DNA of 64,000 bases, taken from contig CM049317.1 in NCBI GenBank assembly GCA_026874595.1, positions 70,267,618-70,331,617 on the forward strand. Direction: 5' to 3'. The notes beneath the pieces are model-generated. The model saw only the letters and a program-made list of their open reading frames with translations. It was not told where the DNA came from and ran no database searches. This document shows, one piece after another, positions 811-51,906 of the stretch. The stretch is from Sipunculus nudus (taxonomy: Eukaryota; Annelida; Sipuncula; Golfingiida; Sipunculidae). The position numbers and the translations under genes are program-made. The stretch's first letter is position 1. Every line of letters starts with the position of its first letter.

Positions 811-980
811 ATGCTGAAAGTCATGCGACTCGCTTATTTGTCAAAGACCATGAACCCATGCAAGGCCCCAGGGGCGTAGCCAAGGTGGGGCCGCAGGGGG
901 CCATGCCCCCCCCCCCCCCCCGGTCGCATCATGTACTCGCCGTCCTTCCGTCCTTTCGGAATTTCACATGATCTAATTGC

Positions 981-984
<4 letters not shown>

Positions 985-1026
<42 letters not shown>
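985..1026. repeat. (TA)n microsatellite
   Basis: Uninterrupted AT run inside the outer hAT-like element. Confidence 0.9.
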
Positions 1027-1029
<3 letters not shown>

Positions 1030-1035
1030 TTAAAT

Positions 1036-1576
1036 CAGGGGCGGATATATGCTATCAGTAGCGGAGTAATAGGAGGCGCCTTCGGCGCGCGGCGCCCCGT
1101 TGAGCTGCAAAATCTCTCATTTTATCTTAATTCCGATTTTCGTGATTAATTTTAGTTTTTCATATCTCTTACTATTAATAAGCAATTACACTTAATTTAA
1201 GTTATCTGCAGTTACAATTACTTTCAAATTTAATTGCTGAGTATAAGGATATTTATGGACAGCTGCAGAACAACTGCAGATCGATCGAGTCCTCTTTACA
1301 TTGTATATTAAAAAATTTCCCAATATGTGAGGGGGAAACCCCCTCCCATACCTTCCCCATGTACCCGTAACTAGCCTTAATTATACCATGGTTCATAATT
1401 GAAAATAAAAATATATATATTTTCATATACTTCAATATATAAAGTATAGTAAAAATTATAAGAATAATAATAATATACATATATATACTTGTATATATAA
1501 CCGTTTTCATATTCCCCAAACATGCATATTAGCGCCCCCCCCCCCCCACGTTTTCGAATTTCTTGATCCGCCACTG
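1036..1576. mobile_element. Second hAT-like miniature element nested inside
   Basis: CAGGGGCGGAT on the left and, read backwards, CAGTGGCGGATC on the right. No clear duplication. Interior AT-rich with 'gtgagggggaaaccccctcc' near 1326. Confidence 0.5.
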
Positions 1577-2033
1577 ATGATGGCCCCTTCCCTCAGTCCT
1601 GGCTACGCCACTGAGGCCCTGGACCCTGTAGGCCTACATGTGCACTCAAGCATATTAGGTCATGTTAGGGGGTCGCAGAAAGAAGCCCTCTTAGTGCGAC
1701 ATCCCGGTCAAAGGAAGGCCTGCCAAACAATTCTTTCAAAGATCTCCCTTTTGAGAAGGGGATTATTTCGGACCAGTGACCTCGAATTGCACTAAAACTA
1801 AAGATAGGGCCCCAGCAGAAAAACTCTTGTCCAGGCATTACACACTCTATGGCCATTCTGTTACCAGGCCCAAAGATAAAGAAGAAAAGAGGCGACTGCG
1901 GGGGGACAAATATTTGAATTAATTATTATGCAGGTAATACGCAAATATTGCAAAAATTGAGTGGAATCCATTCGGACAAACCCGGTACATATGTATGTCA
2001 AACATTAAGACAATCCATACAGTGGTATCAGAG

Positions 2034-3135
2034 ACAACAACAAAGTTTATTGTATAGAAAGGCCTCATGGCCCAAAGCACAAATAACTTAAGTAACATAT
2101 AAATATACACAAGTTTGCCATCGCTTTCTGCCAATATGTGTTAAATCATGTTAAAAGATATATATGTCGTAGAAAAGAATAGCACTGATATACACAAATG
2201 AAAATATATGTGTGTACAATTATCAATTATACATAAAATTACAGTATTCAGTGAATTTATTGATTTAAGTACTACTTTATGGAATATTATTTTCTGAAAT
2301 GTTTTCCTGTCTTACTCTGTTTACCTGAAATAAATATACACCTAAATCATATTGTATCCTGTGATTCTGTGTTCTCAAAATCTGAATAATACCATATTAA
2401 TTTTGTGAAAAAATCCGTATAAATAATAAAAATTTATTGCTTAAATCTTTATATCTGGAACACTTGAAAAGAATGTGGGCCTCATCTTCAATTTCATCAT
2501 TCTAACAAAATTTACAGAGTCTCATATTTACTGGAATATTACTTCTTCTGCTTCTTCAATCTCAAAATCATGGTCACTTAGTCGAAATTGTGTTAAAACT
2601 TGTCTATAGATGTATGGGATATTATTTAAGTATCGTTCTGGTTCAATGCCTGATTTTACTTCACTATATATACTGAGTTTGGATTTTTCCTTTATTTCAG
2701 ATAACATCTTTTGCTGTCCGATATCCTTGACTCTTTGTAGAAACATATCAATGAACATTTTTTCATCGCCAACTCCCTGTTCCAACCATGCATGACCAAA
2801 TCCATACCTATTCAATAAATGCTTAATATAGCCTGGCCATGTCGGCTTACCCAGTTCATTTAACCGTTTTAAGGCATTATAACAAATAAAAGAATATCTA
2901 GAATTTCCCATATTCAGTATTCATAACCAATATTTTAGACATCTTTTAAAGTACATACAATGCAAAGGATATCTACCACATTCAAGCAGAACTCCTGTAT
3001 TAAATGTGCTTCTGCTAACACCCAAAATTTCTTTACAAAATCTTGATTGCACATTATCTATAACTGGTCTTGATAAGAATCCCCAAATTTCAGATCCATA
3101 TAATAATGCTGGTGCTACAACTTTATCAAATATAT
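2034..3135 (-). mobile_element. 5'-truncated LINE with 13 bp target-site duplication
   Basis: The exact direct repeat AGTGGTATCAGAG lies at 2021-2033 and 3136-3148. Read on the minus strand the insert starts inside a reverse-transcriptase ORF (FDKVVAPALLYGSEIWG, a typical LINE RT C-terminal motif), is open through 2911-2528, and ends with a Cys/His-type terminal motif (DEIEDEAHILFKC) near 2450. Stops occur near 2926 and 2505, so it is dead. Its 3' tail carries TTGTTGTTGT. Confidence 0.75.
2528..2911 (-). pseudogene. LINE ORF2 C-terminal fragment
   Basis: 127 codons downstream of the reverse-transcriptase core. The region 3135-2920 upstream reads in the same sense (LLYGSEIWGF, CKEILGVSRST). 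The reading is broken by stops on both sides. It is part of the truncated LINE, with no independent function. Confidence 0.65.
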
Positions 3136-3211
3136 AGTGGTATCAGAGGAGATACGGAAATCACAGAAATCGCCTTACGCTATTAATATATAGATGATGC
3201 AGCACCCTATC

Positions 3212-3311
3212 CAGGGCGTCAATATAGGGGGATGGGGGGGGGGATATATCCCCCACTTTTTGGCAAGGGAGGATGGTCAATGTTATCACCCCCCCCCCCC
3301 ACTTTTCAGAG

Positions 3312-3365
<54 letters not shown>

Positions 3366-3618
3366 TTATATATATATATATATATTAAAAAAAGAAATAT
3401 AGATTTGAATAGAATATAGACAGGCTCCATTTATGAGTTTACTGTGAAAAATAATATTGAATATATTTAAAATGTGATTAAGTATATATATATATATATA
3501 TTTGAAATGTGTCATACAGGCGCAAAAAAAGTTATATATATATATATAATTGTGTGTATGTGTGTGGGTGTGTCGGCGAGTCATCACCCCCACCCGGGAA
3601 GAAAAATTAACGCCACTG
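3212..3618. mobile_element. hAT-like miniature element
   Basis: The left end is CAGGGCGTCAATA and the right end read backwards CAGTGGCGTTAAT. The flanking 8 bp are ACCCTATC (3204-3211) and ACCATATC (3619-3626), 7 of 8 identical, as expected of hAT insertions. The interior is G/C runs and TA repeats. Confidence 0.75.
3317..3384. repeat. (TA)n microsatellite
   Basis: AT run with two TTTA interruptions, inside the 3212 element. Confidence 0.9.
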
Positions 3619-3904
3619 ACCATATCATCGAAAACTGGGCCAGGCAGGACCCAGTAAAGAATAAACCGGCCGCAAGAGGGCGATAGGAGAGCTGGCGGAC
3701 CATGGATTCATTCTCCACACAGGTGGTATATCTATGAACGTCAAGAAAAAACCTTCTGCAAACCTTTATTCGAACAGCACGCTTTTACGCCGAAATCAAG
3801 CTATTACGCTTGAGAAATGTTAATTGCAAATATTAAGTGAATGCAGCAAATATAGTGTATACATCGAAAACATCCTTTCCAAATATAATCAACACAAGGT
3901 ATCC

Positions 3905-4245
3905 GACAGATCCGTAATTCGACAGTTTTGGAGCTCTCATAGGCCCCGATGATACAGTGAATTTAAGAAAGATCTATCGTGTTCATTTTGAGATATGGCG
4001 CGTGAAAAAAAATCACCGATTGTGCCCTGGCAGCCGTATGAATATGAGAAAGATCAAGCAAGTTCTTGTTGAGATATTCAGCGCGAAAGTAAATCACCGA
4101 CTGTGCTCTGGAGGCCAAATGGGAATTCCAACAGGTCTGTAATTTGATAGCCCTGGAGCCCTCATAGGTCCCAATGATCCCTGTTGATTGGGAAAAAAAA
4201 TTTCAAGCATGTCCTTTTTGAGATATCTGGCGCGAAAGAAAGTGT
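3905..4245 (+). repeat. Degenerate tandem repeat, about 220 bp unit
   Basis: 'ggagctctcataggccccgatgat' (from 3930) recurs as 'ggagccctcataggtcccaatgat' (from 4153), and 'gagatat..(c)ggcgcg(t)gaaa' occurs three times. Confidence 0.6.
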
Positions 4246-4249
4246 CGCG

Positions 4250-5690
4250 GACTGACACGGTGGTGACTATAGGGCACCGCTTATCAAGCAAATATGGGGC
4301 ATGCAGTTAAAAGCTGACAGACCTCTATACATTTATACTGACTTCCCTGGAGATTTTAAGATGGAGTTCATGTCTGCCTGTGAATTGGGCGTTTGGCAGC
4401 ATTTTATTCCTTTACACGGTAGGTCCTGACCTTATCGCTGGCTGATGGAAGATTCTGCGGAGGGTCGAAAGGAGCGAGCTGAATGAAATATGGCACCACT
4501 AGACTTGTAAATATTGCTTAAAGCATCAGGGGGCTTAACCATTATGGTGTCCAGTACATGTAATGCATATTTTACGACAACTGTTTTGTCAATTTAGAGT
4601 GGTTATAAGAGTAATGTTAAACAAGTCAGGAAACTGATGTTAAAAACCTGTGAAGTGGTTAGCGCAGTGGCGTCATCTCGTGCATCCAATAAAAACAAGG
4701 GACACATGGGTCACGGCGCTAAACTAAAATTTTAGCAAATGCAAAATGTGCTTTTTTCCCTTTTTTTCAATATAAGCATTTGGAAAGCTAAGAGGAAATG
4801 GCCTCGCTTTTGGTCATAATCAAATACTAAATATATTAATGCAAGACAAATACTACATGTGCAATATGATGGATTACATCAAAGATGCAGGTGCCTCTCA
4901 TGATCAAATATTTGTAAAGCTATCTGTATTTCAACTAGGTGAAAGTAATATGTGTTTAAAATACCCATTGGGAATATATGAAACCCTGTAAAATATAAAA
5001 TCAGGAAGAAAATTGAGATGAGCAGTTGTATAACAATGCACATTTAATTTATTAATCGAAATAAAATGTTGTTAAAATTAGAATTGTACATTTTCAAATG
5101 AGCATAAACTTAATGTAATAAGTACAAGTACACATTGTACTCTGTAATATATGTAAATTGTGGCCTGAAATCATTTAATCTAGCAATGAGGGAAAAAATG
5201 TAATGGGCTTATAAGAGGTACACCAAAGGATATACTTGATAGACAAAAAATGTTTAAATGTAATTAATAATTCTTAAAACAATTTAAAGATATGGCCAAA
5301 TGAGCTAAAGATTAATTTCCAGGAAAGTTTGCCCAAATTCTTGATTGAATGTATCAGTGTTATGTAAATAAATTAAATAATAATTAAAATAAAATTAAAT
5401 TAAATTAAAAATAAAAAAAAATATATATGAAAAAGAGTCTCTAGGTTCAGCAATTGATTTTAAGTAGATATATTTCCTGATTTTTTTACGGTGTACATTA
5501 TGCTCGGTCCTTTAGCTTCAAGAAATTAAGCAGTAATGACCTAATTGCTAATATGTACATAGGACATGTAAAGAGAAATATGTATGTTAAATATGATCAA
5601 AAACAGATAAGAGGTTTTGATATAAGGCAGTGTAACAATTGGTTTTAATGAAAAAATTAGGGTTTTTCCTTAATATCTCGACGAAACGAA
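4250..5690. other. No gene seen
   Basis: AT-rich DNA with scattered stops; no recognisable coding or repeat structure beyond simple sequence near 5380-5430. Confidence 0.5.
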
Positions 5691-44190: not shown

Positions 44191-44194
44191 ATAT

Positions 44195-44341
44195 TAGGCT
44201 AGTCAAAATAGCGCAAAAAAGGGCCAAACGTACCACTAATTGCAATAGAAACAAAACTTGCTGCAAAGTTATCCTAGGATACCCCCAAATAACATATCAA
44301 AAATGTAAATCAATGGAATGAGTGGAATAATGTGTTTTGAC
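44195..44341 (+). repeat. Left terminal inverted repeat of the 6.1 kb element
   Basis: Pairs with 50142-50279 in reverse complement, with a roughly 10 bp length difference near the outer end. The best conserved blocks are 44196-44211 and 44229-44256. Confidence 0.75.
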
Positions 44342-44950
44342 CAGTTATATCAAGGAAGTTCGCTTTCTGTACCCGATTCCTAGGTATACATTTTCAGCCA
44401 TAACAGATATGAGGAGGTGACCACAAGTGTATCATTTATATCAAAACCTATGTTTTTTAGGCGATCTTTCACATGGACTTGGTAAAAAAAAAGATTGGGG
44501 CCTCCCTATAGGTGTAACATGTACTACCCTACCCCAAAATAACTCCACCATGGCTATCATGACACAGAGTTTCTGATTTAAAGAACATAATTTCTCTTTT
44601 CAGGCTTCAAATCCATTCACAGTTATTCTTAGATACCCCCAGATAACATATTTAAAGGTAAGTCAAAGTGATGTGTAGAAGACTGTTTTAATCAGTTATA
44701 TTGAGCTAGTTCATTTACAGTATCTGATCCCTAAGTACATTTTTAGCTATAAATGCTATGTAGATAAGTCCAGGAGTGTTCATTTGTACTGAACCCCGTT
44801 TTTTGGGGTGATCTTTCACATGGACTTAGTTAAAAAAAGGATTGGCAGCCTCCCTATAGGTGTAACATGTACTACTCCCCCCCCCCCCCCCAAACAGCTC
44901 CACCATGGTTGTAAGTCTTTAGTTACCAATTTCTCTTTTGGGAACTTCAA
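44268..44950 (+). repeat. Two tandem about 350 bp units in the element's 5' leader
   Basis: 44268-44610 and 44625-44950 share 'gatacccccaaataacat', 'tgatctttcacatggactt', 'cctccctataggtgtaac' and 'ctccaccatgg' in the same order, with divergence. They lie between the left inverted repeat and the coding start and could be a duplicated promoter or leader. A run of about 15 C at 44877 is in the second unit. Confidence 0.7.
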
Positions 44951-45116
44951 ATTACATAAAAGAACAATGAGTAGTATGGTTATCGTGAGGATACCTTAGT
45001 GGGCTAACTTTTTCATTGTTTTCTTTAAATGTTTCCTATAAATGTACATGTATACCAACAGATAGCAATATGGCATTTCTTAGTCAGACAGGCATAAGTG
45101 TTTCTTTGTTTACAGT

Positions 45117-46163
45117 ATGGCCGAGAAGTGTGCCCTATGTGGAGAGTGCCTTGGTGATGGGAAACCTACAGCAACATTGACAGAAAAAGGATGCATAGGG
45201 ATTGCCAAAGCAAATCTGGAACGAGAAGTTGAAATTGAAGTGAAACCTGGTGACAAGGTGCATGTGGACTGTAGACATAAACACACTAACAAAAATGAGA
45301 TAAATAAATTCAAACGGAGGCGGGTATCAGATAGCCCAGATCGAAGTGACTTAAATCGTACTGTTCGCTCAGAAAGCCCCGCATTTTCATACCAGGACCA
45401 TTGTGTACTCTGCGGACAACCTGATAAGTACAGTGGAAAGAAAAAAGACCATGTATTAATTCCGGTCCGGACCTTAGATTTTGATAGGTCTATACTAAAT
45501 CACTGTAATGATCGAAAAGATGACTGGGCAACTATCGTCAAAGCAAGAGTAACATTTACTCAGGACCTACACGCATTTGATGCAGTGTATCATGAACTTT
45601 GTAGCACAAATTTCAGGACTGGAAGGAACGTTCCCAAGATTTTCAAGGAAGGACTCATAGATCCATCCAAGAAACCAAAGATGGGAAGGCCAGAGAATAC
45701 TGTTAAACAAGAGGCTTTTATAAAAGTGACAGAATATCTCAAAGCAAATGATGAAGAACAGACAACCATCTATGATCTGATTGACAAGATGGGAGAGTTT
45801 CTGCAGGGTACAGGCTTGGAGCCTTATGGTTTTACGTATATGAAGACAAATCTTCAGAAACATTTTGGAGATGGCATCATTATAGCAGAAATGTATGGTT
45901 ATAAAAACATTGTTACATTGAAGGGTACTGCCTCATCTGTTCTCAGGGACTTTTATCAGAAGCCAAAGCTTCCTGACGCAGAAACAGAAAAAATGCGGGT
46001 GATTGAAACTGCCGCCAGTCTTATTAGAGATGACATTAAGACTGTTGTCCAGGATAAGGACATTTATCCCACTAGTCTTGCCATGTCTACTATTGAAGCA
46101 TCTGCAGCATTTATCCCAGAATCATTGCAGTTGTTTTATGAAAACTCTGATTGTGGGTACTAA
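45117..46163 (+). CDS. Transposon protein, segment 1 (N-terminal Cys/His clusters)
   Basis: 348 codons from ATG 45117. Cluster one is CALC at residues 5-8 with C52 and H54/H56. Cluster two begins HCVLC near residue 96 and closes with YHELC near residue 160, followed by FRTGRNVPK. Both look like zinc-binding DNA-recognition modules, though not a named family I can assign. A Lys/Glu-rich stretch follows. True coding leaves this frame near 46140. Confidence 0.65.
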   Translation: MAEKCALCGECLGDGKPTATLTEKGCIGIAKANLEREVEIEVKPGDKVHVDCRHKHTNKNEINKFKRRRVSDSPDRSDLNRTVRSESPAFSYQDHCVLCGQPDKYSGKKKDHVLIPVRTLDFDRSILNHCNDRKDDWATIVKARVTFTQDLHAFDAVYHELCSTNFRTGRNVPKIFKEGLIDPSKKPKMGRPENTVKQEAFIKVTEYLKANDEEQTTIYDLIDKMGEFLQGTGLEPYGFTYMKTNLQKHFGDGIIIAEMYGYKNIVTLKGTASSVLRDFYQKPKLPDAETEKMRVIETAASLIRDDIKTVVQDKDIYPTSLAMSTIEASAAFIPESLQLFYENSDCGY

Positions 46164-47868
46164 TAAAGAAATGAAAGTTTGCTCATTGGGGCAAGCCATT
46201 ATGCAGGCGACACTTCCGAGAATTTTAACTGCTCCCCTTCAGTTAGGTCTGGCTGTTGACATGCATTCGAGTTTTGCCTCGAGATTTTTAAATGACTCCT
46301 TGAATGCACTTGGATTCTGTTCCTCATATAATGAAGTTCTGAACTTCCAACGGTCAGCAGCAGTGAGCCAGGGACTTGATCTTACAGAGTTTTTCCCTGG
46401 ACAATGGATGCAGTATATAGCAGACAATGTCGACCACGACATAAGGACAATTGATGGACGCAACACTTTTCATGGCATGGGGGTAATTGCGGCCGGTACG
46501 CCAAAGACTGATGTTACTCCAGTAGTGAAACGTGTTTCCGTGAGTGCTGATGATGTAACTGCTGTTGGACGTATCGCCATCAGGCCTTTCTTACCTACGG
46601 GAAATGAACTTCAAAAATTGAAATTTGAGTGCTTGCATGGCTTATCACTTCCGCACGAAGAAGGCAGACCTTTGGTTGACTTACTATGGAAAACCTCCCT
46701 GTGTCTTAGAGCTCCTAGGCCTGCATGGTCAGGGTACATGCAGTTAATATCAGATGGAGATCACCCCGGGAAATCATCAATCATGTTCCTGCCAATGATT
46801 GATATGAATCCGTCCGATATGACCTGTATCAATTCAACACTTCACTTCGTTTCTGACCATGCGAGACGCCATGATGTAGTGCCTGTAGTTACATTTGATC
46901 AACCACTTTGGTGGAAAGCCATGACCATATTAGAAGGTGCTCCGTTGGAGAGTCCTTTACACTCTATTATACCAAGGTTAGGCGGCTTCCATACTCTTAT
47001 GAGTTTTTTAGGTTCAATTGGGCATCTAATGAGTGGAACAGGGATCCAGGAGTTACTAGAGGTGATCTTCGCTGCAAACACTGTTCCTCACATAATCAGT
47101 GGCAAAGCATATGCCAGAGCAGTTCGTGGGCATTTTCTGATTGAAGCTGTCCTGCATACACTTTTGTTGTCCAAAGTTTGTGGAACAAAGCTCACTCTTC
47201 CATACCAAGATGGTAATAAAGATGGGGTCAATGTCGACAGCCAACTATCAGGCATTTCCGACCTGTATGATGACCTGATGTCAGGAACTGTGACCACTGG
47301 AGATGTAGAATCTTCGGAGATGCTTAAGTCACTTCAGGTTAGACTGAAATCTGTGACTGATGCAGCTGAGTCCGAGTCTTCAACTTCAAAACTTTGGTTG
47401 ATGTACATGCACATGATAGATATTACCAGAGACTTCATCAGATCTGAGCGGACCGGTGACTGGCAGCTACACCTATCTACCATGCAAGAGATGTTGCCAT
47501 TAATGGCGGCCTCCGGGCATAATTCGTACACGAAATCACTGCATATTTACCTTCAGAAGATGACCAAATTGTCAGAAACACACCCACGAGTCCATGGTTT
47601 GTTCCTTAGGGGATTTCATGTCATACGGCGATCCAACCGTTTTTGGGCAGGGCTGTCACCAGACCTCGTGATTGAACAGGTCCTTATGAGGAGCTTGAAA
47701 ACCAGTGGTGGCCTCACCCATGGGAGAGGTATGACCGAAGTCCAGAGGGTGCTTTGGTGTCTGTCAAGACCAGCCTGTGCTAAAATAAGCGACGCAATGC
47801 AACAACTGACCTCTGTTACACTAAGGACAAGTGAGCAGCATATGGATTCGTCGTCGCTAGACAAAAGA
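46140..47868 (+). CDS. Transposon protein, segment 2 (central region)
   Basis: An open frame spanning 46003-48021; the part likely used is given here. Notable strings are LAVDMHSSFASRFLND, YIADNVDHDIRTIDGRNTFH, VVTFDQPLWWKAM, GGFHTLMSFLGSIGHLMSG and RGHFLIEAVLHTLLL. The acidic residues in the D-N-V-D, T-F-D-Q and F-L-I-E strings are spaced so that a DDE-type RNase H fold is conceivable, but this is only a hypothesis. Confidence 0.6.
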
Positions 47869-48605
47869 GGGATGCAGCTGATTCCGAGAAACTTTTGTCA
47901 TTCCTTGAATGGAGATCCCCATTTGATGCCAAGCCAGCCCTACAGAATATTGTTACTGGTATTTCTGCTGGAGCTCAGGTCAATGTTCAGCACGCAAAAG
48001 AAATTGGAGAAGATATCCTGAATAAAATGGCTGGAAAAGGTGTTCTTCAACATTCCTTTAAGAGGAAGGACCAGGCTGTTACTTTCAGTTCCAAAGCATC
48101 TGTCAAGATCAGGGATGACACAGTTCTAATTGACCCCCTTCTCCTGTTCCAAAGACTTGTGATAATTGGATCTCAGGAAAATGATCTGGCCAATGTCTTA
48201 TGCTATGAACTATGCAGTTTCCCTCCTGCTCTCTTTCAGTCAAAAGATATGCTATTGGAAGCGGACAAGCCAAATCTAGCAGGTGCCATTTGGTCAGCCG
48301 TGCCATCAAAGGATCCTCCAGAACATAACTTCAAATATGTCCTCGATGGGGGTGCCCTAGTTCAACGAATTCCCTGGCAGGTTGGGGACACCTATGATAA
48401 AATTCTGAAAAGTTACATTGGGTATGTAACAAAACACTATGGTCAGCCAGTTGTGGTCTTCGATGGATATTTAGATGGACCCTCCACCAAGGATTGCACT
48501 CACCTTCGCCGGGGTGGTGGTGTTGAGGGCAGGAAGGTGGTGTTTAATGCAAACATGACGCTGCAGCTGAAAAAAAAAAGAATTTCTCTCCAACAGGGAG
48601 AATAA
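47862..48605 (+). CDS. Transposon protein, segment 3 (start of nuclease domain)
   Basis: Frame 3 resumes at about 47862 (KLLSFLEWRSPFDAKPAL). Near 48445-48515 it reads QPVVVFDGYLDGPSTKD followed by LRR, which resembles the FEN1 N-terminal active-site strand (VFDG with a downstream Lys/Arg). The frame ends in an A-run where a shift is required. Confidence 0.6.
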   Translation, partial: QKRDAADSEKLLSFLEWRSPFDAKPALQNIVTGISAGAQVNVQHAKEIGEDILNKMAGKGVLQHSFKRKDQAVTFSSKASVKIRDDTVLIDPLLLFQRLVIIGSQENDLANVLCYELCSFPPALFQSKDMLLEADKPNLAGAIWSAVPSKDPPEHNFKYVLDGGALVQRIPWQVGDTYDKILKSYIGYVTKHYGQPVVVFDGYLDGPSTKDCTHLRRGGGVEGRKVVFNANMTLQLKKKRISLQQGE

Positions 48606-49500
48606 GCAGAGATTTATTGGTCTTTTGGGAGAAAGACTCTCTGAATGCGGGTGTGAATTCCTGTGCGCAAGTGGAGATGCTGACTTGATGATTGTACAAA
48701 CTGCAGTTAAGATGTCAAATACCTGTGAGGTTGTGTTAGTTGGAGATGATACAGACCTCTTAGTCCTCCTGCTCTATCTTGCAAGGGACGAGGGAAATGA
48801 CATTTTCTTCCGTCCAGAACCAAAAAAAGGAGCAGTCATGAAATGTCTCAGTATAAAGACAACCCGATTAACCCTTGGAATGAATGTGTGTGATAACATC
48901 CTCTTTGTGCATGCATTCCTCGGGTGCGACACCACGTCAAGGCTGTTTGGTATTGGGAAAGGAGCTGGGCTGAAACTGATCAAGGACAATAGAGTCTTTC
49001 GTCAAGCAGCTAAAATATTCCAGAGCTCTGGATCATCAAAGGCCGAAATCAAGAAAGCTGGGGAGAAAGCTATGCTGATTGTGTACAGGGGCAAGGAAAC
49101 AGACACGCTTGATACATTGAGGCATCAGCGTTTTCAGGAGCTGGTGATTGTCAGCAAAAAGGCTGTACACCCAAACATGCTGCCTCCTACCTCTGCTGCT
49201 GCAACATACCATAGTTTACGAGTTTTTCATCAGGTGCAAATTTGGAAAGGGAACTCTCTGGACGCTGAAGAATGGGGTTGGAAAGTTTGTGATGGCAGGA
49301 TGGTACCAATCAGTACTGACAAGGACCCAGCTCCTCAATCGCTCTTGAAGCGTGTGCGGTGCACATGCAAATCTGGATGCGGGACCATGCGGTGTGGATG
49401 CAGACGTCAAGGTCTTGACTGTTCTATGGCTTGCTCAGGGTGCAGGGGAGTCTGTGATCATGTACCAAGTGACGGAAATGTCGATGATATTGAGATGTGA
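48580..49500 (+). CDS. Transposon protein, segment 4 (nuclease core and CXC domain)
   Basis: After the A-run the frame reads SNRENKQRFIGLLGERL, then SGDADLMIV (about 48670), VVLVGDDTDLLVLLLY (about 48730) and FLGCDTTSRLFGIGKG (about 48916). The acidic pairs match the metal-binding Asp of XPG/FEN nucleases, and the last string matches their H3TH motif (GCDxxxxxxGIGxxxA). Near 49357-49460 lies CTCKSGCGTMRCGCRRQG followed by more spaced Cys, a half CRC (tesmin/TSO1) zinc-binding domain. TGA ends it at 49500. Confidence 0.7.
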   Translation, partial: EFLSNRENKQRFIGLLGERLSECGCEFLCASGDADLMIVQTAVKMSNTCEVVLVGDDTDLLVLLLYLARDEGNDIFFRPEPKKGAVMKCLSIKTTRLTLGMNVCDNILFVHAFLGCDTTSRLFGIGKGAGLKLIKDNRVFRQAAKIFQSSGSSKAEIKKAGEKAMLIVYRGKETDTLDTLRHQRFQELVIVSKKAVHPNMLPPTSAAATYHSLRVFHQVQIWKGNSLDAEEWGWKVCDGRMVPISTDKDPAPQSLLKRVRCTCKSGCGTMRCGCRRQGLDCSMACSGCRGVCDHVPSDGNVDDIEM

Positions 49501-50141
49501 CTTTTCATAGACCTCCTGGTGCAGATACGCAAGGTTGACAGTACCTACATCAGAAATTTGCCCTCTGTTCTCAAAATTCGATACCATAGGGCCCTGCAGT
49601 ATTGACCTATTGAGACTTTGGTGATCAGATTTGATTGAATGTTAGTATAAAAGACAAATTAATGTTTTCCATACTTGAAACCAATCAATGCGCTTCATGT
49701 ATTAGTTAAGCCTGTTTGTAAGAGATTTGGGGTTAGGGGTACCCTAAATACACATATTTGTACTACGCATATTTGTCTCATCATTCTTTTCAACTGCAAA
49801 AATAAAAAAGTAGTTCTTACAATTTATCATTTGAGTAGAATCTTTGACAGCAAGGCGTGTTCTCACCTGTAAGATTTCCCTCTGACTCAAGTGGTCCCAA
49901 AAAAGGTTTTGCCAAATTTTTCACTCTAAAAATCAAGTCTTATTAAAAAAGGCTTATACACGAGGTCGACTTATACGCGATAATTTACTGTATCTATATT
50001 ACTTCAGAATCATTTTAAACGAATAGATCGCTGTCTAAAACATAGGAACCAACACCAGTTTTGACAATATTGGTTAACTACTGCCCTGGCAATGAACATT
50101 TTGAGTTTCTATAGGGTCATGGAAGCTGGAAATTGGTGGTG

Positions 50142-50279
50142 GGTCAGAAACGTATGTTCCACTCCCTCCACAGAATTACATTTTTAATATGTTGTTTAGA
50201 TGCATAGACAAAGGCAATTAAAAGTGGTTTCGTTTGTGTTGCAATTAGTGGTACCTGTTTCACTATTTTGACCAGCCTA
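50142..50279 (-). repeat. Right terminal inverted repeat of the 6.1 kb element
   Basis: Reverse complement of the left terminus; the core TTGCAATTAGTGGTAC is exact. Confidence 0.75.
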
Positions 50280-50292
50280 TATGTTGTTAGCG

Positions 50293-51906
50293 TATTAGTC
50301 TTGTCATTCTATACTTGATGTTTAAACCAAACCCGGAACACATTCCAGGTGAAATGATTTTTGGTGTCTGATGGCCAAAACATTCTGGAGTATAAAATAT
50401 TAAAAGTCCCAAAAAGTCCCATTCGGGGAAAGTCATTTAATTTGATGATTTTAATTGGCTAATTAACGTTAAGTTTTACTTTACTTATCTGCACATTGTC
50501 ATATTAAGTTTGGTGTTTACCCCTATGAGGGACCACTCATTTGAAAGATCTCTTCAATGCCTGTCATTTGAATCTGACTTAGATGTAAATTTTACCAATA
50601 ATAACGATTTTAAGGATACTGACCAGGACAGAGCTCGAAAAAACACTTGCCCCCTTGCCCGAGGGCTTGGAAATATCGTAAGAACAACCATTGTCTGGAA
50701 GTTATCCGCTGGGCCTACGATGTATCTTACTCTACGTTATACGTGCCCTTGAAACAGTTCAACGGGATTTCAAATACAGGATTAAGCATGTGAGAAATAG
50801 AAATAAGATCAGGGTATGTTTTATGATGTGTTTTATTAGGGATATAGGGTTATCCACATCAGGAAATATAAGCATAAGAAAATTTCAATTATATGAAAAG
50901 TCTAATTAAATATCCGATCCTAACGTATCGCATGCCTTAATGGCGGACTCCGTCGGTGGTCTTTTGTCATTATCTTCATTCTTACAGCGGTGCGTCATTA
51001 GCAAGATTTGCATAATTGTCATCATTATAATACCAAGAACCAAAACTAAGTTCAAATGAGTGCAAGCATATAGAGCACATACCTTGTACGTTTATTCGGA
51101 TTAGATATAGCAAGGTATGACTATATTAACTAACTTACACAACACTCATTAGATGTTAAACACTTATTTTTTGGCTATTACAAACAGGGATCAGCGTTAA
51201 CCGTAAGGTATAGTACTCGTCAATAGGACTAGTAAAGCAAAAAAGGAAATAGTCCATTAACTTGTTCTATTTATTAGTCCCCCGCTTAGAGGAAGGACTG
51301 ATAAAATGGTTTACGTCTGTCCTTCCTTTATTCCGTCCTGCCCACCTCATACCTTTACCAAATATTGCTAAAACCCTTGTGCTTCCTTCACCATTTTATG
51401 CAGATATACTCAGCACATGACTGACATGTGATTACTAGTATACTCTGCACGCGACACCACCTCTGTTTAGCGACTTTCTGCGGACAATTTTTTTTTTCAC
51501 TTTACTTCTGATTAGTCAGTAGATTTTCGCCATCAAATCATTAGCACGGTTTCCTTGGAGCTAGGAAAATATAATAAATACATTAATGAATAGAATTATT
51601 TTCAGACTGATTGGAATGCTCAATGAAAAATTGAAATATAAGGTTAACTTTACATCTTAGTCAGATCTTGAAACGAGTGGTTACTCATAGGAGTAAATAC
51701 CAAGCTTAATATGACAATGTGCAGGTAAGTAAAGTAAACCTTAATCGTTATTTAGCCAACTGTGATCATCAAATTAAATGACTTTCCCCAATGGAACTCT
51801 TTGGACTTTTTATATGTTATTCTCCAGAATTTTCTGAGTAAAACACAGTTGGTTTCATTTATGTTTCAACTTGTTCCGGGTTGAACCCTATTTTTACTAG
51901 ACTAAA
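50293..51906. mobile_element. Non-autonomous DNA element with about 300 bp inverted repeats
   Basis: 50300-50610 and 51630-51906 are inverted copies sharing for example GGGGAAAGTCATTTAATTTG, CTGCACATTGTCATATTAAG and 'acccggaaca'. The possible duplication TAGCG flanks both sides (50288-50292 and 51907-51911). The centre has no coding frame I can support; it contains a bivalve-type 'gtccccc...gtctgtcctt' repeat near 51280. It starts about 14 bp after the right end of the 6.1 kb element. Confidence 0.7.

Follow-up and report, generated by a model that had tools for sequence, protein, structure and literature searches.

The element at 44195..50279 (+ strand, 6085 bp) of the window, the window being the whole stretch of 64,000 nucleotides of Sipunculus nudus DNA analysed here, is a DNA transposon of low copy number and recent mobility that encodes one large fused protein. 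It probably belongs as a new family to the AcademX lineage in the Academ superfamily, a placement that rests on architecture and duplication length with the lineage compared by its description. The protein of about 1460 aa would comprise, in order, N-terminal Cys clusters, a DDE-type region, a FEN1/XPG-type nuclease and a CXC-like C-terminus. The kind is known and already named, AcademX having the same plan, and the element is a good example of it rather than a new kind.

The limits of the element were set by its copies in the genome and by their shared ends and flanks. It starts with TAGGCTAGTCAAAATAG and ends in the near-exact reverse complement, with the inverted likeness reaching about 150 bp inward. 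Inverted-repeat comparison resolved the left terminal inverted repeat (TIR; 44195..44342, + strand) and the right TIR (50142..50279, - strand) into three blocks each, pairing over 22 nt (44195-44216/50258-50279, 86% identity), 44 nt (44214-44257/50227-50270, 80% identity) and 56 nt (44287-44342/50142-50197, 75% identity), in keeping with the clear TIRs of the original prediction. A 17-nt end motif, allowing up to 3 mismatches, occurs three times in the window as against 0.22 expected, with the third occurrence at 51888 (2 mismatches) lying outside the element. The ends gave no signal when folded as single-stranded DNA. The 5′ untranslated part contains a diverged direct duplication with a spacing of about 350 bp (44264..44908, + strand; copies at 44264-44553 and 44618-44908, five blocks, 72-87% identical), which may provide putative repeated protein-binding sites. 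Within the 3′ part, genome searching identified a short repeat at 49769..49935 that matches at least 26 other places in the genome at 71-85% identity without the rest of the element; it is probably nested in the element or was captured by it.

The 1.43 Gb genome was searched for copies with the same ends, as had been proposed together with a tabulation of their target-site duplications, and seven full-length copies were found, each spanning the full 6085 bases of the element at 96-100% identity and including the window copy on contig C12, plus fragments. An eighth near-complete copy, on C8, has an internal deletion of 179 bp, and pairwise identity among the eight is 96.1-99.3%. The window copy is flanked by the duplication TAT (left copy at 44192..44194, right copy at 50280..50282, from reading of the flanks). 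Both ends were read in nine copies: in seven the 3-bp flanks match (tat, cca, tat, aca, caa, tta, atg), in L003 and L018 they do not, and in none of the nine does the match reach 4 bp. The element thus produces duplications of 3 bp and shows no obvious fixed target sequence. The 22-nt end pattern is found without mismatch at 17 places genome-wide and the backwards control at none, all 17 falling on known copies or fragments of the element. The reading as a TIR transposon is thus borne out by a multi-copy family with precise shared ends, in which several full-length copies carry the same ends and their own flanks, unlike a single-copy host gene. A tenth copy, at G000:C4:65118847-65147779, has the flanks ata and gta. 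Its parts are separated by about 24 kb of other DNA, which suggests that a large insertion or a rearrangement occurred later.

Profile similarity and conserved motifs both support the presence of a FEN1/XPG-type nuclease in the protein. The nuclease region (48324..49299, + strand; the frame in the window changes near 48570) was delimited by a family alignment and by a profile match to exonuclease 1 (EXO1). Four or more families are represented among the seven rows of the alignment, which share 39-51% identity with the first row. Rows L045, L048 and L049 are near-identical; L018/L047, L046 and L050 were left out as partial and L041/L042 as giving the same match as L040. Seven aspartates are invariant in all seven rows, at alignment positions 8 (VLDGG; 48345 in the window), 47 (VFDGY; 48462), 118 and 120 (GDAD; 48676 and 48682), 142 and 144 (DTDLL; 48748 and 48754) and 202 (GCDTTS; 48928). 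Acidic active-site motifs are followed by an H3TH-type GCD motif, a feature of the FEN1/XPG superfamily. Against PDB chain sequences the nuclease profile gave seven matches at E<=10, of which five are EXO1 entries, which we take to be human, with E values from 2.8e-4 to 4.6e-3; EXO1 is the only significant match, two of the five entries passing E=0.001, and as all five are the same enzyme they count as one piece of evidence. The other two matches are unrelated (E 0.36 and 0.79).

In the EXO1 alignment VFDG pairs with VFDG, GDAD with YEAD, DTDLL with DSDLL and GCDTTS with GCDYLS, such that the predicted motif order VFDG - DDTDLL - GCDTTS is supported over these motifs and over GDAD as well. The likeness to EXO1, FEN1 and XPG lies in the order and near identity of the VFDG, acidic and GCD motifs, the difference from EXO1 being its YEAD where the element protein has GDAD. 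The aligned stretch begins after VLDGG and leaves the invariant aspartate at 48345 outside, and this residue may be the first FEN-type aspartate. EXO1 and other FEN1/XPG nucleases are host repair enzymes that are not known to be fused to a transposase. XPG Pfam models gave no match to the seven rows at E<=10, and the single window nuclease piece gave nothing relevant against PDB (one unrelated match, E=1.7). Weak Pfam matches were recorded in three of the seven rows each for LacAB_rpiB (0.0015), NYN_YacP (0.015), SMN_Tudor (0.037), Nipped-B_C (0.044), PIN_4 (0.048) and PYC_OADA (0.22), the three rows perhaps being the near-identical ones, and in one of the seven for UPF0180 (0.067). The two PIN-type matches among these were given no weight as support for a nuclease because unrelated families score alike. 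An AlphaFold2 model of the single window nuclease piece had a mean pLDDT of 35.6, too poor to judge the fold.

Upstream of the nuclease lies a putative DDE-type transposase domain. This transposase-like region (46183..47604, + strand, from the family alignment) is long, and its conservation between families includes invariant D, E, W, H and G residues. Its alignment of ten rows, partial or near-identical ones included, extends over about 470 aa and in the numbering of the first row has a near-invariant D207 (PMID) and the invariant D239 (TFDQP), H270 (GGFH) and E293. By analogy with DDE transposases the D at 46801, the D at 46897 and the E at 47059 are candidate catalytic residues, with GGFH at 46981; an alternative candidate for the first catalytic aspartate is in the conserved ADNVDH motif. 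DUF6589 matches the region below the cut-off in three of the ten rows, with E values of 2.5e-4 to 1.1e-3 over all scans, and was absent from Pfam scans of the L051 and L052 proteins, and a search for DUF6589 in the literature available found no paper. The region's profile had three unrelated matches in PDB (best E=0.057), none of them a nuclease, and AlphaFold2 on a single window piece of the region gave a mean pLDDT of 37.5, too poor to judge the fold. Among the protein pieces scanned, a Pfam match to OmpA (22.3 bits against a cut-off of 21, with 20 and 19.3 in other scans) was dismissed as chance as nothing else supports it.

Relatives abound in the genome, with at least 85 matches (54 of 730 candidates scored), which outside the element's own family are about 31 to 57% identical. 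In the family L034/L052 the nuclease part is 50% identical, the ends are TAGGCCAGGAG and the one copy read has the 3-bp duplication ATG, while in the family L045/L051/L054 the nuclease part is 41% identical, the ends are TAGTCGGGTCG and the one copy read has the 3-bp duplication TAT. These two further families have TAG-type ends in common with the element. For a third relative, L053, there were no convincing terminal repeats in the stretch fetched. Related families are many (L034/L052, L045/L051, L027/L053, L040 and others, on C10, C8, C12 and C9 of G000) and some have long open frames, of 1353 aa in L045 and 1532 aa in L048, and the lineage is therefore diverse in this genome. At G000:C9:36152265-36173995 three relatives (L040-L042) lie 9.79 kb apart with equal score and identity, a tandem array holding a related element. 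Viral contigs scanned for relatives yielded none that was confirmed.

In the passages available, AcademX figures as a lineage of Academ that encodes a nuclease, the type being given as 'nuclease' alone, and that produces duplications of 3 or 4 bp where those of AcademH are of 9 or 10, a difference that 'seems related' to the encoded nuclease and helicase (PMC10045372). The superfamily (Kapitonov and Jurka 2010, as referenced in PMC4455052) is listed among those with a DDD/E transposase (PMC9587614) and as a DDE/D superfamily, found almost exclusively in bivalves among the molluscs studied, with curated bivalve elements averaging 5565 bp (PMC10294476); a RecQ helicase in Academ has also been mentioned (PMC3627910). 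In keeping with AcademX, the present element of about 6 kb has 3-bp duplications (seven of nine copies, and one copy each in two other families) and encodes a nuclease marked by the EXO1 profile match and invariant aspartates; the comparison brought out no difference. As to a DDD/E transposase domain of the Academ kind, the element has a conserved candidate D/D/E with no transposase model above cut-off. The nuclease of AcademX is reportedly XPG-like, and a whole-word search of the literature available, which papers with few other search words could escape, found no paper naming both Academ and XPG. The original prediction knew of no named superfamily with this combination of domains, a claim that is wrong or at least unsupported given the description of AcademX as nuclease-encoding with 3-4 bp duplications. 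The placement is less than certain because the EXO1 matches represent one enzyme and the VLDGG aspartate lies outside the match. AcademH, which belongs to the same superfamily, differs in having a helicase and duplications of 9-10 bp against the 3 bp of the element (PMC10045372), and no helicase model was among the Pfam matches at E<=1 in the four proteins scanned. KolobokE, KolobokD and KolobokP likewise combine a DDD/E transposase with an accessory nuclease, but the nuclease folds are lambda-exonuclease-like, DEDDh and His-Me finger (PMC9587614).

An unlikely alternative to the AcademX placement is that the element represents a new superfamily outside Academ, with the FEN1/XPG-type nuclease as its sole catalytic domain and transposing alone. 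The nuclease is the best-supported domain of the protein and the upstream region has no above-cut-off match to a known transposase model, both of which would be in keeping with such an arrangement. However, the length of the upstream region and the conservation of its invariant D, E, W, H and G across families argue against it, as do the short fixed duplications of the element, which are typical of DDE strand transfer. In addition, AcademX already couples a nuclease with 3-4 bp duplications (PMC10045372). The related suggestion in the original prediction, that the nuclease replaces a classical transposase, went unsupported with a conserved D/D/E-type region (46183-47604) in the same protein and is the less economical reading.

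The Cys clusters noted earlier in the protein are visible as two at the N-terminus and one at the C-terminus. The N-terminal Cys/His clusters (45129..45602, + strand, from 45129 and from 45402), as read from the sequence, are probably zinc-binding and may serve in DNA or protein binding; Pfam returned no model at E<=1 for the piece containing them. The C-terminal CXC-like cluster (49360..49455, + strand) was recognised by its cysteine spacing, CxC-x3-C-x4-CxC-x6-C-x3-C-x2-C-x3-C, L051 and L052, proteins of two other families, have comparable CxC-type clusters close to the C-terminus, and a role in DNA binding is likely. The earlier description of this cluster as a tesmin/TSO1-like CXC domain stands as regards the similar spacing of the cysteines but not as regards the Pfam TCR/CXC model, which scores 7.5 bits (E=7), far under its cut-off of 23.5. 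No literature tying tesmin/CXC transposons to XPG was found in the sources available. A large protein with Cys-cluster regions could also point to a relative of the KDZ (Kyakuja-Dileera-Zisupton) elements, with which the original prediction had compared it. This is very improbable, as no KDZ or CxC model, such as Pfam presumably includes, was among the matches at E<=1 in four proteins, an argument that is weak in that XPG models were also missed; KDZ elements are not known to carry this nuclease.

The transposase gene (45117..49500, + strand) is a single ORF in the intact copy at C1:84043254-84049344, where the frame runs for 1460 codons from the first ATG (element positions 929-5308); copy L004 lies reversed and its frame was read on that strand. 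In the window, comparison with the intact copy shows the frame interrupted by 1-bp frameshifts at three points (near 46140, 47850 and 48570) and by no stop substitution, leaving ORFs at 45117-46163, 46003-48021, 47895-48605 and 48625-49500. With its frame broken, the window copy is the dead relic of a single insertion, and the one long intronless coding region originally described is true of the family but not of this copy. The full frame is kept in one of the eight near-complete copies, the other seven each having at least two frameshifting indels. Raw pN/pS against the intact frame is 0.28-0.58 in all seven of these, the values being uncorrected proportions with one shared reference and hence not independent, and on this basis it is suggested that selection acting on the protein kept the lineage going before decay of the copies set in. 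That a host gene was domesticated here, or was captured between repeats, is scarcely credible, for while one copy has a full frame under coding constraint, eight near-complete copies share the same ends in unrelated places with different target duplications, seven of the eight frames are broken, and related families likewise have TIRs and duplications.

For the element as a member of AcademX, the transposase region would most likely bind the TIRs and carry out strand transfer by DDE-type chemistry, joining the target strands 3 bp apart in keeping with the 3-bp duplications observed. The nuclease would probably trim or cut the other strand, or flaps left at excision or integration, with zinc-type DNA binding possibly provided by both ends of the protein. 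More tentatively, the fused nuclease may be essential to transposition: acting in cis with the DDE domain, it would cut the second strand or a flap and set the 3-bp stagger. The transposase would then be a single polypeptide with two nucleases and a CXC tail for DNA binding.

Judged by the few papers available that name it, Academ appears to have been little studied. The published idea of a difference in duplication length between the helicase and the nuclease branch (PMC10045372) could be tested on this element. With a low-copy family of 96-100% identity, a full frame and related families with 3-bp duplications, the element is a good system in which to examine the role of a FEN1/XPG-type nuclease in transposition.
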